From assembly GCF_004959855.1 (NCBI RefSeq), contig NZ_SPNT01000001.1:930001-994000 (forward strand): a stretch of 64,000 nt of DNA, given 5' to 3'. Shown here one piece after another: positions 11,711 through 16,051 of this stretch (position 1 is its first letter; each line of letters starts with the position of its first letter). The notes beneath the pieces were generated by a model. It made no database searches. It saw only the letters and a program-made list of their open reading frames with translations, and was not told where the DNA came from. The translations under genes and the position numbers were made by a program. Source of the stretch: Nitratireductor sp. XY-223. Lineage in GTDB: Bacteria; Pseudomonadota; Alphaproteobacteria; Rhizobiales; Rhizobiaceae.

Positions 11711-11772
11711 TTAAATCAAGCACTTAGCAAATCCCGAAATTTCGAATAGTTGGAATCCAGGCCGGGTTTCGA

Positions 11773-13119
11773 CTATTTCTGTCTTTTCCTCTTCCGCCAG
11801 GGCGCATCCCGTTCCCAATCGCCGGCCATGATCGAGCCGAAGGGATCCACCATGTCGACAACGTTGGCGAGCTCGTGCTTCCGAATCTGTTCACGGACCT
11901 GATCAGCACTCTTGTATGCGTCGGGAAGTTCGCTCTTGTCCGGAATTCCGCAGTAGAACCGCACGTCGATATCGGCCGGAATGACAGGTTCGTATTCCTT
12001 CAGAAATCGTGTCCGGCTCATATTGCGACCGGCTCCATGGGGCGCGAAACCCAATGCACCGCGATTGTCCGCGTGCTGCGTGATGAGGATCGGTTCAGCC
12101 ATGTTCATCGGGATGATCGTGCGGCCATCGTCGTCCGGCGAGAAGCCGGCATAGGACGGTGTGGCGCCCTTTGCGTGATAGAACAGGCCATCAGACTTCT
12201 GGAAGACAAAATTATGCTCATTCCAGAATTGGTCTTCTATCTTGTTCCCGAGATTCGCGGCGATGGCATCATGAAGGCACAGGTGGTTGAGCTTGGTCCA
12301 TTCTCTGACCAGTTGAAGCGCTTGACAGTAATCCTGACCTTCCCGTGTGTCAGCCGCGAGCCAGGAATTGGCCTTCGACACACGAGGCGCGATTGCCAGC
12401 GTATGACGATACGCTGCGGACATCCCGCGCTTGTACAGATGCGCCCCAAATCCCCTCGAGCCGTGATGTGAAACGATGGTCAGCTGACCGGTCGATCGCA
12501 GGTGTCCGACGTAGTAAAAATGGTTTCCGTCGCCCTGGGTGGTGAAGTGCCCCCAGGCGATATCCTCGAGTCCATTCGTGAAGGGATTGCTCTCCATCTT
12601 CGACAGGAATTCCGCCGGCGCGGTGATCGGATGCTTTGCGCGTTTGGTGGGTCCGAAGTGTGCGAATTCATTGATCGTATCCAGCAGTCGGGCGGGATCG
12701 TCCGCACGCTTGAGCACCGTCATGGCCATCGAACAGCAGATGTCCGACGAATGATATCCAGGGTGAATGGCGTTTTCGGTCGCGACGACCGCGCCGACGG
12801 GAATTGTTCCCGCCGGACACGCATCCGGCATGATGGCGCCGGCCTTGACCGTTGGGACCCGCATCAGTTCGTCCATTGCCTTGTGGACCGCGGCGACATT
12901 CTCTCGCTCGACATCGTTCTCAGGCTCGATGAACGCCTGATAGGCCAGCCCGTTGGTCCGCATGAGAACTTCAACGGGTTGCAGGTCCTGCAGGGCGGCA
13001 AAGATCTCGTTGTCGTCGTTGCCCTGGGAGCGCATCCTGTTGGCATGGGCGATCGCATCGGGGAACCACTTACCCGGCTTGAAGCCCCATTTGATCAGTG
13101 TCTTTCCGGTGATCTCCAA
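11773..13119 (-). CDS. RtcB-family RNA ligase (divergent)
   Basis: Predicted GTP- and manganese-dependent ligase that joins 2',3'-cyclic phosphate or 3'-phosphate RNA ends to 5'-OH ends. Conserved RtcB-like blocks in the 448 residues are HPGYHSSDICCSM, TQGDGNHFYYVG, SHHGSRGFG, HAKGATPSYAG, and APHGAGRNMSRT. The last block carries the histidine expected to accept GMP. Metal-binding Cys and His positions look kept. It begins with TTG at 13119, preceded by AGGAG at a 7-base spacing; no ATG fits. No RtcA cyclase, archease or RtcR-type sigma-54 activator is next to it. It points at the tRNA-Asp gene on the other strand. Function as repair or tRNA ligase is inferred from family only. Confidence 0.85.
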   Translation of the reverse strand: MEITGKTLIKWGFKPGKWFPDAIAHANRMRSQGNDDNEIFAALQDLQPVEVLMRTNGLAYQAFIEPENDVERENVAAVHKAMDELMRVPTVKAGAIMPDACPAGTIPVGAVVATENAIHPGYHSSDICCSMAMTVLKRADDPARLLDTINEFAHFGPTKRAKHPITAPAEFLSKMESNPFTNGLEDIAWGHFTTQGDGNHFYYVGHLRSTGQLTIVSHHGSRGFGAHLYKRGMSAAYRHTLAIAPRVSKANSWLAADTREGQDYCQALQLVREWTKLNHLCLHDAIAANLGNKIEDQFWNEHNFVFQKSDGLFYHAKGATPSYAGFSPDDDGRTIIPMNMAEPILITQHADNRGALGFAPHGAGRNMSRTRFLKEYEPVIPADIDVRFYCGIPDKSELPDAYKSADQVREQIRKHELANVVDMVDPFGSIMAGDWERDAPWRKRKRQK

Positions 13120-13830
13120 CGGAAAACTCCTATTTCATCGGGTCGTCAGATATCGGTTCGACGACTGTCTGGTTCTGTGTTGTTCCGGTGCTGTATATGA
13201 TTACAGCCACCTCTTTTCCATCCTTGAAGGATTTGCGTGCTGACGACACGCAAACTGATTGTCCTGCCTTTTTGCGTCGGTCAAATTCGGGGTTGGGCCG
13301 CAAATATTGAGAAACAGGGTTAACGCGCCGGCCCCGCCGCATTGGCGGCCCGGCAGTCGTGTTCGGCAATCTTCCGCAAAAACAAACACATCACATATTT
13401 GAGATGGGAGCCAAAAACAGCCTCTCACCGGCCAACATTTGAGGATCAATGCTTGCCGGCGGCGTTGTCTGTCGCGATGCGAATACTGCCGCCCGGCAGC
13501 CGTCTTCGCCCGGCCGCTCGCAATCCATTTCTCACAATTGAGATGAATAAAGCAGTTCAAGCAGTTAATTTTATTTGGTTACCTGTCTTACGTTAATATC
13601 ACCATACAAGTCAATATCGCTAAGTACATATATAATAAAAATATGTATAAAATTTGATTAAAATTTTATCTATTTCAGTCTTCTAAATATTAATGCCTGT
13701 CAATATTGACTTATAGAGTACTAAGAGTTGTTATAAATCGTCAGGCGGGAATTAATTGTTGATAAAGCGAAGAATTTAACGTTCTGCAGCGGGGAGGCCA
13801 CGCGGATGGGAAGCGTGAAAGGGGAGTGCC
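13120..13830. other. 711-base AT-rich intergenic region upstream of the repeat protein
   Basis: No convincing coding sequence was found on either strand; the short open frames lack ribosome binding sites and protein-like composition. From about 13530 to 13800 it becomes markedly AT-rich, unlike the rest of the window. It contains a perfect 12-base palindrome, GTCAATATTGAC (13699-13710), and a TTGACT...TATAAA pair (see the promoter entry). Such an AT-rich block ahead of an odd gene is compatible with nucleoid-protein silencing or with acquired DNA. This is inference. Confidence 0.5.
13706..13737 (+). promoter_or_regulatory. Candidate promoter of the repeat-protein gene
   Basis: TTGACT (13706-13711) overlaps the right half of the palindrome GTCAATATTGAC. 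TATAAA follows at 13732-13737 after 20 bases, or TTATAA after 19, which is longer than ideal. A regulator binding the palindrome would cover the -35 element. The strong AAGGGGAG ribosome binding site is about 80 bases downstream. Confidence 0.35.
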
Positions 13831-15636
13831 ATGAAGTTTTCCAGGCGATTAAAGCTGCCGGCCATGCTGGCGGCTGCCGTGCTGTTCGGCGCGGCGTACG
13901 CTGTCGTATGGCCTAGTAGTGCCCTAGCGAATAGTGGAGGAGCATCGAGCTCTGAAAGTTCCGCTGGTTCCGAAAGCTCGGCAAGTGCAGAGAGTTCGGC
14001 CAGTGCCGAAAGCTCTGCAGGTCAAGCGAGCAGCAACAGCGGTGCAAACAACAACAACGGCCGCAGCAACGAACAAAGCCGCAACCGCGGCCGTAACAAC
14101 GAACAAAGCCGCAACCGCGGCCGCGACAATGAACAAAGCCGCAACCGTGGCCGCAACAATGAACAAAGCCGCAACCGCGGCCGTAACAACGAACAAAGCC
14201 GTAACCGTGGCCGCGACAACGAACAAAGCCGCAACCGTGGCCGCAACAATGAAAGCCGCAATAACAAGGGTGGCGGCAAAGAAAACGGCAGATACGGTAA
14301 CAGAAACGGTGGTGACCGTGCTGGCCGGGAAGGTCGGCGCAATGGCGGTGAAGGCAAACGTGGCCGAGCCGGCAGGCACAATAAACATGGCGGCTGGGGA
14401 AAAGACGATCGGACACCCGGTTGGCATAACAAAGACAAGGATCGCGACCGCTGGGACAAAGGCGATCGTGGTCGTTACACCAAGAAGGGTGGCGCAAGGG
14501 TTAAGACCCGAGACAAGCACCACTACAAGCATCGTTCGGGCCGCGACAAGAAGCGCGAGCGCGAAAACGGCCAGAGCAAGAAGAAGCGTGAGCGTGAATA
14601 CGGCCAGAAAAAGAAACGCGGTGAATCACCGCGCAATGAACAGCGCCGTGGCAAGAAGAATGATGAATGGCAGCGCTACGCCGACAAACATCACTACAAG
14701 CACCGTTCGGGCCGCGACAAGAAGCGCGAGCGCGAATACGGTCAAAACAAAAAGCGTGAGCGTGAAAACGGCCAGAACAAAAAGCGCGAGCGCGAATACG
14801 GCCAGAATAAAAAGCGTGAGCGCGAAAACGGCCAGAACAAAAAACGCGAGCGCGAATACGGCCAGAAGAAGCGTGAGCGTGAAAACGGCCAGAAGAAGAA
14901 GCGCGAGCGTGAATACGGCCAGAAGAAGCGTGAGCGTGAAAACGGCCAGAAGAAGAAGCGCGAGCGTGAATACGGCCAGAAGAAGCGCGAGCGTGAAAAC
15001 GGCCAGAAGAAGAAGCGTGAGCGTGAATACGGCCAGAAAAAGAAACGCGATGATTCACCGCGCAACGAACAGCGCCGTGGCAAGAAGAAGGATGAATGGA
15101 AGCGTTACGCTGACAAGCATCACTACAAGCATCGCTCCGGCAAGAAGAAAGGCGGTCAGAAGTTCAGCAAGAAAGACTGGAACAGTGATCGGCACTACGC
15201 CAAGAAGGACGGCCGCAAGAAGCGCGATGATGTAAAACGCGACCGCAAACGTGGTGAAGAATGGGAACGTGGCAAGAAAGGCAAATATGCCTACAAGAAA
15301 GACGGTCCCAAGAAGAAGTACGGCAAGCGGCATGGGCCTAAGAAGAAGCATGCCCACAAGCACCACGACAAAAAGAAGAAACACGCTCACAAGCGCGACG
15401 GCAAAAAGAAGAAGTACGCTTACAAGTACGACAAGAAAAAGAAGAAGCACGCTCACAAGCACAAGAAAAAGAAGAAGCACGCCAAGAAGCACAAAAAGAA
15501 GCGTAAATATGCCAAGAAGAAAAAGAAGAAGCGCAAGCACCGTCGCAAGAAGCCGCGGCCGGAGCCCGTTGCGCCTCAGCTCCAGCCGGTCGACTGTGAA
15601 CGGTTCCAGACGGACGGCACAATCGACTGCCGCTAG
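13831..15636 (+). CDS. Secreted, highly basic tandem-repeat protein of unknown function
   Basis: I do not recognise this 601-residue protein. It has a clear Sec signal peptide (basic RR start, hydrophobic 10-28, likely cut after SSALA at residue 34). A Ser/Glu/Ala stretch follows (35-70), then six 10-residue repeats of the type NNEQSRNRGR (79-140). Next come a Gly/Arg/Lys region (141-228), a long block of KKREREYGQ/KKRERENGQ units (about 239-407) flanked by copies of DKHHYKHRSG and SPRNEQRRGKK, a Lys/His/Tyr-rich tail with HAHK and YAYK motifs (480-575), and a short non-repetitive end with two cysteines (DCERF...DC). Net charge must be very positive. It has a strong ribosome binding site (AAGGGGAG) and a strong terminator after it, so it looks expressed alone. 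It could be an envelope or matrix polycation that binds DNA, polysaccharide or minerals; that is speculation. Confidence 0.8.
   Translation: MKFSRRLKLPAMLAAAVLFGAAYAVVWPSSALANSGGASSSESSAGSESSASAESSASAESSAGQASSNSGANNNNGRSNEQSRNRGRNNEQSRNRGRDNEQSRNRGRNNEQSRNRGRNNEQSRNRGRDNEQSRNRGRNNESRNNKGGGKENGRYGNRNGGDRAGREGRRNGGEGKRGRAGRHNKHGGWGKDDRTPGWHNKDKDRDRWDKGDRGRYTKKGGARVKTRDKHHYKHRSGRDKKRERENGQSKKKREREYGQKKKRGESPRNEQRRGKKNDEWQRYADKHHYKHRSGRDKKREREYGQNKKRERENGQNKKREREYGQNKKRERENGQNKKREREYGQKKRERENGQKKKREREYGQKKRERENGQKKKREREYGQKKRERENGQKKKREREYGQKKKRDDSPRNEQRRGKKKDEWKRYADKHHYKHRSGKKKGGQKFSKKDWNSDRHYAKKDGRKKRDDVKRDRKRGEEWERGKKGKYAYKKDGPKKKYGKRHGPKKKHAHKHHDKKKKHAHKRDGKKKKYAYKYDKKKKKHAHKHKKKKKHAKKHKKKRKYAKKKKKKRKHRRKKPRPEPVAPQLQPVDCERFQTDGTIDCR
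14065..14250 (+). repeat. 30-base in-frame tandem repeats (NNEQSRNRGR block)
   Basis: Six nearly identical 30-base units and a partial seventh encode (S/N/D)NEQSRNRGR. Variation is confined mostly to the first residue and to silent third-codon positions. The coding reading frame explains the repeat, so it is not a CRISPR array. Confidence 0.9.
14515..15160 (+). repeat. 27/30-base repeats nested in a larger duplicated segment
   Basis: Units encoding (N/K)KKREREYGQ and (N/K)KKRERENGQ alternate (Tyr, then Asn) over about 170 codons. They are bracketed by three copies of a DKHHYKHRSG box and two copies of SPRNEQRRGKKxDEWxRYA. The layout suggests a duplicated module whose inner repeats then expanded. 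Silent differences between copies show the repeats are not a very recent single expansion. Confidence 0.85.
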
Positions 15637-15694
15637 AGCTTGAGCGAAACAGGCATCGGTGCCGGTGAAACGGACACCGAAGCCAAACCGAAAA

Positions 15695-15730
15695 AGAAGC
15701 GCCCGCCGTTGTTCGGCGGGCGCTTTTTTA
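15695..15730 (+). terminator. Rho-independent terminator after the repeat protein
   Basis: GCGCCCGCCG and CGGCGGGCGC form a perfect 10-bp stem with a 5-base loop and are followed by six T. It lies about 60 bases past the stop codon. AAAAAGAA before the stem would also allow some function on the minus strand. Confidence 0.93.
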
Positions 15731-16051
15731 TTGCGGTGGCGCGAGCGATCCTCGTGCGGCACGTAGCCTGCCCGCGAAGGCGATATCCGTCTCGGCGTGT
15801 CGGACCGGGCTTCTCACCAAACGCCGAGGTCGGGATTCGGACTCGCTTAGTGGCAGCACGGCTGTGCACAATCGGGGGTGCGGGGCCATCGGATTTGCGT
15901 TAATTTTGCGGTGCACTATGGCGAGGGTCAATTCGTCGCATTTATGTGTTTGACCGGGGGCATTTGCGTTGACTGGGCGGGCTTTATGTGTAAACCGGCA
16001 CATTGGAACCATTCGCGACTGCAACAGCCGTGAAGCAGCAAGGAAACCAAG
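15731..16051. other. Region upstream of the nuo operon
   Basis: 321 bases with no credible gene. It should hold the nuo promoter. The best eye match is TTGACT (15969-15974) with a poor -10 (TAAACC at 15991), about 60-80 bases before nuoA. The nuoA ribosome binding site AAGGA sits about 10 bases upstream of its ATG. Confidence 0.35.

Follow-up and report, generated by a model that had tools for sequence, protein, structure and literature searches.

The gene at positions 13831-15636 on the forward strand of the DNA analyzed here, a 64,000-nucleotide stretch of Nitratireductor sp. XY-223 (the window), runs from an ATG start through 601 codons to a stop and encodes a highly positively charged protein with an export-type N-terminus. 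We read it, with confidence that is about even, as a lineage-specific, exported and largely disordered polycation that would bind or bridge acidic polymers at the cell surface. The initial annotation of this DNA had the gene's position, strand and length right.

Among the 90 six-frame open reading frames of at least 200 amino acids in the window, this protein has the top net charge, +135, the runner-up at +79 being an out-of-frame reading frame within the same gene; its lysine content of 20% is likewise the maximum, with the next at 8%. The mature chain, taken from residue 34 on (568 residues), has a net charge of about +131 and a pI of 10.8, with 120 Lys, 93 Arg and 26 His beside 82 Asp/Glu, and 8 of the 568 residues are Val, Ile, Leu, Met or Phe. 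Its composition (K 21.1%, R 16.4%, G 11.3%, E 8.8%, N 7.9%, S 6.0%, D 5.6%, H 4.6%, Y 3.9%) is dominated by the Arg, Lys, Glu, Asn, His and Gly first noticed in it, but the description of the chain as almost only these residues was too strong, because the six make up about 70% of the mature part. The longest run of Lys, Arg and His is 13 residues. Net charge lies between +8 and +29 per 50 residues across residues 84-583, and between +16 and +26 per 100 residues across residues 84-483; it is higher near the C-terminus, where residues 534-583 carry +29 and are 52% Lys. Past residue 40, no 15-residue window exceeds a hydropathy of 1.0. An AlphaFold2 model built from two sequences has a mean pLDDT of 54.9, and 335 of its 601 residues score less than 50.

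The searches turned up a single true relative, a 520-residue protein encoded directly before nuoA in Hoeflea (Allohoeflea) poritis E7-10 (NZ_JAPJZH010000009.1). PMC13077888 transfers this species to Allohoeflea and gives "H. prorocentri" as a close relative; its source was the bleached coral Porites lutea, according to the title of the species description cited in the same paper. The two proteins have in common the signal peptide, the motif HNKHGGW..D.RTPG, the motif KHHYKHRSG (three and two copies, respectively), a conserved block at residues 440-512 (KKDWN..RHYAK..RDRKRGEEWERGKK..KRHGPKK; 15148-15366, forward strand), a Lys/His tract of KKKHAHK-like units at residues 504-574 (15340-15552), and a tail at residues 575-601 (PVDCERxxxDGTxxCR; 15553-15633). 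The tail holds the only two cysteines, Cys 589 and Cys 600, and the two-cysteine ending singled out at first sight is kept in the ortholog; AlphaFold2 places a low-confidence beta-hairpin between them, with strands at 591-594 and 597-600.

The reading frame is under purifying selection. Over the whole alignment of 469 codons, dN is 0.40 and dS 1.21; residues 431-512 are 75% identical (71 aligned codons, dN 0.13, dS 0.77) and residues 513-575 are 80% identical (45 aligned codons, dN 0.15, dS 1.58). Across the signal peptide and residues 440-601, differences fall 31/19/62 on codon positions 1/2/3. Constraint is weak over residues 34-182 (33% identity, dN 0.79, dS 1.26), where the alignment is doubtful, and dS is saturated over residues 183-238. 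Because there is one ortholog, conservation here means a single comparison.

The protein had been described as made of nested repeats. Repeats are present, all on the forward strand: six copies of NEQSRNRGR with a period of ten residues (14068-14247), 13 copies of KRERE[YN]GQ within 14551-15036 (two at 14551-14607 and eleven at 14722-15036), and three copies of DKHHYKHRSG (14512-14541, 14683-14712 and 15112-15141), the last being the unit found twice in the ortholog. The two large arrays, however, have zero copies each in the sole ortholog, and the nested layout is not what is conserved: long arrays were seen only in the Nitratireductor protein, whereas composition, charge layout, both ends and several short motifs are shared. 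As a first impression from one ortholog, it is the composition, the two ends and a handful of motifs that selection seems to preserve, and not any particular repeat. All ten pairwise DNA differences among the DKHHYKHRSG copies lie at codon position 3, although choosing repeat units by amino-acid pattern favors synonymous differences. A scan for DNA self-matches, which lacks that bias, found lags divisible by three in 1035 of 1035 windows (60 nucleotides, at least 80% alike), with mismatches of 147/83/271 on codon positions 1/2/3, leaning to the third. AlphaFold2 draws a helix at residues 294-407, over the KRERE array, with pLDDT of 86-96 for blocks within residues 301-400. Checked as a possible single alpha-helix, this region has high pLDDT, yet its repeat contains Gly and Asn and the model used two sequences only; we do not rely on the helix, because the ortholog lacks this array and because of the Gly in the repeat.

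The gene has expression signals of its own, as the initial annotation had held. An AT-rich upstream region (13600-13780, forward strand), conserved in H. poritis, lies within a stretch (13550-13780) of 27% GC, the window as a whole having 61%. Conservation between the two species extends over roughly 200 bp upstream: in successive blocks of 50 alignment columns, starting at the ATG and moving away from it, 43, 41, 36 and 34 columns are identical, then 20 and 20. A ribosome binding site read by eye, AAAGGGGAG (13818-13826, forward strand), ends four nucleotides before the ATG, and the part of the leader that starts at GGCCACGCG and reaches the ATG is one base apart from its H. poritis counterpart. 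A promoter-like pair picked by eye, TTGACT (13706-13711) and TGTTAT (13729-13734) with a 17-nucleotide spacer, is missing from the output of the promoter scan. Downstream stands a strong intrinsic terminator (15693-15729, forward strand; stem -30.4 kcal/mol, z -6.8), and H. poritis has a terminator of different stem sequence (-27.4 kcal/mol, z -6.1). Rfam gave no matches up to E 1 over 13500-13900, and the leader folds no better than its shuffles (z -0.6 and -0.1). No second copy of the upstream region was found in the same genome. In a sample of 121 family genomes that evidently did not include H. poritis, 54 had a match to the region at E 1, the best foreign match covering 31 bases at 3.9e-6 in genome G006. 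A xenogeneic silencer of the MucR/Ros type might act on the AT-rich stretch 13600-13780. An out-of-frame open reading frame of 36 codons in each species (13806-13916, MGSVKGECHE...), with its own Shine-Dalgarno-like stretch, overlaps the beginning of the polycation gene. Identity to H. poritis is 26 of 37 positions, the stop counted, and the differences, small in number, are distributed 7/4/3 over the codon positions of this frame, whose position 1 is position 3 of the main frame; we dropped it as a coding unit because the differences track the main frame.

The N-terminus is best read as an export signal. Residues 1-33 (MKFSRRLKLPAMLAAAVLFGAAYAVVWPSSALA; 13831-13929, forward strand) have the features of a Sec-type signal peptide, and by scripted rules of thumb for charge, hydropathy and cleavage site, as distinct from a trained predictor, both species show a basic n-region, a hydrophobic h-region and small residues at -3 and -1, in keeping with the signal peptide first claimed. 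The n-region has a charge of +4 (+3 in the ortholog), the best 15-residue hydropathy window is 2.27 at residue 12, and the two signal peptides are 70% identical over 33 residues. Two candidate cleavage sites appear in each species, ALA/NS and AYA/VV here and SLA/QS and AHA/VV in the ortholog. Entry by the Tat pathway is unlikely because the twin-arginine is not conserved: the polycation has RR where the ortholog has SRMR. A lipoprotein is also unlikely because the N-terminus has no Cys, the lipobox Cys being absent from the cleavage site and the sole cysteines being 589 and 600.

The same N-terminus admits another reading, in which the signal stays uncleaved and serves as an N-in anchor; the polycation would then be periplasmic, tethered to the inner membrane and engaged in neutralizing lipopolysaccharide or other anions. 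The +4 n-region, the hydrophobic stretch that continues to VVW, the presence of two cleavage candidates with neither clearly best, and the letters VVWPS, identical in both species, are consistent with this. The small -3/-1 residues that precede residue 34 in both species (ALA and SLA), however, favor cleavage, and we consider the anchor unlikely.

The opening of the mature chain also bears on export. A Ser-rich spacer free of Lys and Arg occupies residues 34-77 (13930-14061, forward strand), the first mature Lys or Arg being residue 78; random ordering would give 44 such leading residues with a chance of 3.6e-10. The corresponding spacer of the ortholog is Gly/Gln-rich, with 22 Lys/Arg-free residues (chance 1.5e-4). 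In both species the Lys residues are shifted toward the C-terminus relative to the Arg residues, to an extent reached in 0 and 2 of 2000 label shuffles, respectively. The ratio of Lys to Arg is 1.29 (1.12 in the ortholog) against 0.53 in ten neighboring genes, which agrees with a published preference of Sec substrates for Lys, where the trend is toward few Arg (PMC9110029). The trends described for mature chains of Sec substrates are few Arg, hydrophobic patches and no poly-Lys (PMC9110029, PMC10465204), and a review states that such patches help Sec targeting and that a model protein was transported less well once they had been removed (PMC10465204). The polycation departs from these trends, which are not strict criteria, in its number of Arg, its runs of Lys and its lack of hydrophobic patches.

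Bacterial proteins of the histone H1 kind, such as Hc1/HC2 and AlgP, are Lys-rich disordered polycations that are not known to have an export signal. If the N-terminus of the present protein were no working signal, the polycation could be a cytoplasmic nucleoid protein of this kind, and its composition does resemble H1-like tails. The heparin-binding hemagglutinin of mycobacteria, the adhesin HBHA, offers a further comparison: it has a folded N-terminal part, no known classical signal peptide and, like the polycation, a Lys-rich repetitive C-terminal part, while the polycation is unlike it in being charged over nearly the whole mature length. No sequence relation to HBHA was seen in profile searches, in which the polycation has no PDB-chain match at E 0.1 and no Pfam match. 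Lysine-rich HBHA has been reported as nucleoid-associated (PMC10665949). Against a nucleoid role for the polycation stand the conserved hydrophobic N-terminus with its basic n-region, the Lys/Arg-free spacer, and the lack of any Pfam match at E 1 for either the full protein or the ortholog, the last of which also separates it from Hc1/HC2 and AlgP; we judge such a role improbable.

Silaffins of diatoms begin with a signal peptide that is followed by a Ser/Lys-rich repetitive chain. A silaffin-like protein that binds metal or templates mineral through clusters of Ser, Lys and His would accord with the Ser-rich spacer, the HAH units of the Lys/His tract and the 26 His of the mature chain. Composition is the sole basis of this likeness, and modifications, including the polyamine and phosphate groups of silaffins, are unreadable from DNA. 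Conserved phosphorylatable Ser with Lys clusters, the mark of silaffins, is not seen across the pair: Gly and Gln replace the spacer Ser in H. poritis, so the Ser is not conserved, and we give the mineral or metal reading only a small probability. Secreted polycations serve wet adhesion as the polybasic cement proteins of the sandcastle worm; those are animal proteins, and the polycation here has no identified polyanionic partner. The protein would act much as other repetitive cationic proteins do, and it belongs to none of the groups compared.

The initial annotation had named no described bacterial family with this exact layout, and the Pfam, NCBIfam, PHROGs and PDB-chain libraries searched yielded no fit. 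Besides the absence of Pfam and PDB-chain matches given above, the full protein had no PHROGs match at E 0.1 and a single NCBIfam match, at 15.3 bits against a cutoff of 650 (cutoffs are curated whole-protein scores; PHROGs has none), and the ortholog matched no NCBIfam or PHROGs family. A profile check restricted to the N-terminal 80 residues likewise gave no family placement. The N-terminal matches, to Pfam New_glue (17 bits, cutoff 31), NCBIfam TIGR03931 (12.5, cutoff 47.6), phrog_197 (E 0.011) and phrog_21988 (E 0.087), are read as composition. No description of the protein or its layout appeared in the open-license literature searched, as judged by the titles and starts of abstracts among the matches listed.

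Genome searches gave matches at E 0.01 in 4 of 61 genomes of relatives and at E 0.001 in 5 of 394 genomes of the family, both sets of matches including H. poritis, and in 3 of 397 genomes of the order and 2 of 385 of the class, where H. poritis is not among the matches listed. The tail alone matched at E 0.1 in 46 of the 394 family genomes, H. poritis again included in the set. A pattern scan returned 34 stretches from genome contigs, one of them a relative (H. poritis), and 19 from viral contigs with no relative; the one plasmid record matched, from Mycoplasmopsis (25% identity, E 4e-3), was taken as low complexity. Across relatives, family, order, class, contigs, viruses and plasmids, no further relative beyond H. 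poritis appeared among the matches inspected, a set that excludes those in G040, G1038 and G003, the tail match in G036 and most weak tail matches. Matches set aside, all ascribed to composition or chance, were the R/G-rich tail of a large protein (G010), the repeat tail of a long protein (G127), a tail match in a 40-codon frame opposite a 186-residue open reading frame (G223), and matches in G158, G544, G282, G020 and G005 (the last at E 1.4). Proteins at two loci of other Hyphomicrobiales, L091 and L092, combine a signal-like N-terminus with a low-complexity stretch (profile E 8.7e-8 and 0.005) but differ in having acidic linkers, a length of about 170-210 residues and a non-repetitive C-terminal part, with neither polycation nor Cys tail, and are read as composition matches rather than homologues. 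At these loci (L091 714-2031, L092 853-2058), pairs of exported-looking Ser/Gly/Asp-rich proteins adjoin response-regulator-like genes.

Within the genus, nuoA is present in 8 of 8 genomes and the polycation gene in two, according to a two-sequence profile whose best matches in the other six were E 1.4, 3.7 or none; at a threshold of E 10 this profile matched in 4 of 8 genomes, with a second match in the Nitratireductor genome itself at 0.86 that has stops inside. In a tree of nuoA plus the next 1480 bases, for which the program flagged the base composition of that same genome as unlike the rest, the two carrier species are sisters with 100/100 support; one gain in their common ancestor is thus the simplest reading. 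A place between rtcB and nuoA had been given for the gene: its position directly before nuoA is shared by both species, but rtcB is no neighbor in H. poritis and was not found in the 16-kb stretch from that species. Among stretches from seven other genomes of the genus, a tRNA-Val/tRNA-Asp pair is kept upstream of nuoA in G003-G007 and is absent from the 7.7 kb upstream of nuoA in G001; the tRNA scan left out G002, where 1.4 kb lies upstream of nuoA near a contig end. The interval from tRNA-Asp to nuoA is about 290-440 bases in three genomes (G003-G005). In G006 of this set it holds a single gene, which matches DUF6492; it holds rtcB and the polycation gene in the window, and a sce7726/sce7725/RES-domain cassette with the polycation gene in H. 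poritis. The interval resembles a small insertion hotspot of the genus (window 11711-16051, L055 3096-9114, L047 5682-7187). The H. poritis cassette adjoins tRNA-Asp (L055 3333-6270), and we take it to resemble a mobile toxin-antitoxin or defense-like set. The neighbors of the polycation gene, the nuo genes and rtcB, give no hint of function.

If it were a secreted antagonist, the polycation would harm the envelopes of competing cells in the manner of free histones; this would suit the high charge and export signal, and also the variable interval with its cassette in H. poritis. The open reading frame lists and tblastn searches with the window's genes, however, found no other interval gene common to both species, so the polycation has no shared partner beside it, and we hold this role to be rather improbable. 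Neutral low-complexity sequence or an assembly artifact is exceedingly improbable: fast turnover of the arrays, low complexity, relatives seen in one other species only and the weak constraint at residues 34-182 might suggest a non-functional stretch, but the related gene in a separate genome record, the purifying selection with its third-position excess, self-match lags that are only in frame and the conserved leader mark a genuine gene, as the initial annotation had maintained, and make the artifact it had named as a possible refutation unlikely.

For the preferred reading, an exported polycation of the cell surface, a course of events can be sketched. The protein would enter the Sec pathway by its signal peptide, with the Lys/Arg-free spacer first through the channel, where it could serve the start of translocation, and with positive charge then increasing, unevenly, toward the C-terminus. 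Outside the inner membrane it would be a largely disordered chain that may bind and bridge lipopolysaccharide, exopolysaccharide, extracellular DNA or sulfated glycans of a marine host, and the two-cysteine tail may close as a disulfide hairpin, capping the chain or pairing it with another. Polymer binding is the likeliest function in view of the charge and the export signal, and the protein should bind polyanions outside the cell at low salt. Binding to sulfated glycoconjugates is reported for the lysine-rich repeats of HBHA (PMC3293801); by analogy, and given the coral origin of H. poritis, sulfated host glycans are one possible target.

More tentatively, and we regard this as possible though on the doubtful side, the protein may be the founding member of a family of exported polycations that has not been described before, in which the spacer, the shift of Lys over Arg toward the C-terminus and the C-terminal rise in charge are adaptations that let 213 Lys and Arg cross SecYEG; with them a marine bacterium associated with a host would build a cationic scaffold for its acidic matrix. 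If so, the polycation and its ortholog would be natural exceptions to the trend of Sec substrates to avoid Arg and poly-Lys, and the standard bacterial export machinery would have an exceptionally difficult cargo in them. Cationic components of bacterial matrices are mostly thought to be polysaccharides or DNA-binding proteins released from cells; a dedicated gene for an exported polycation would be a separate solution.
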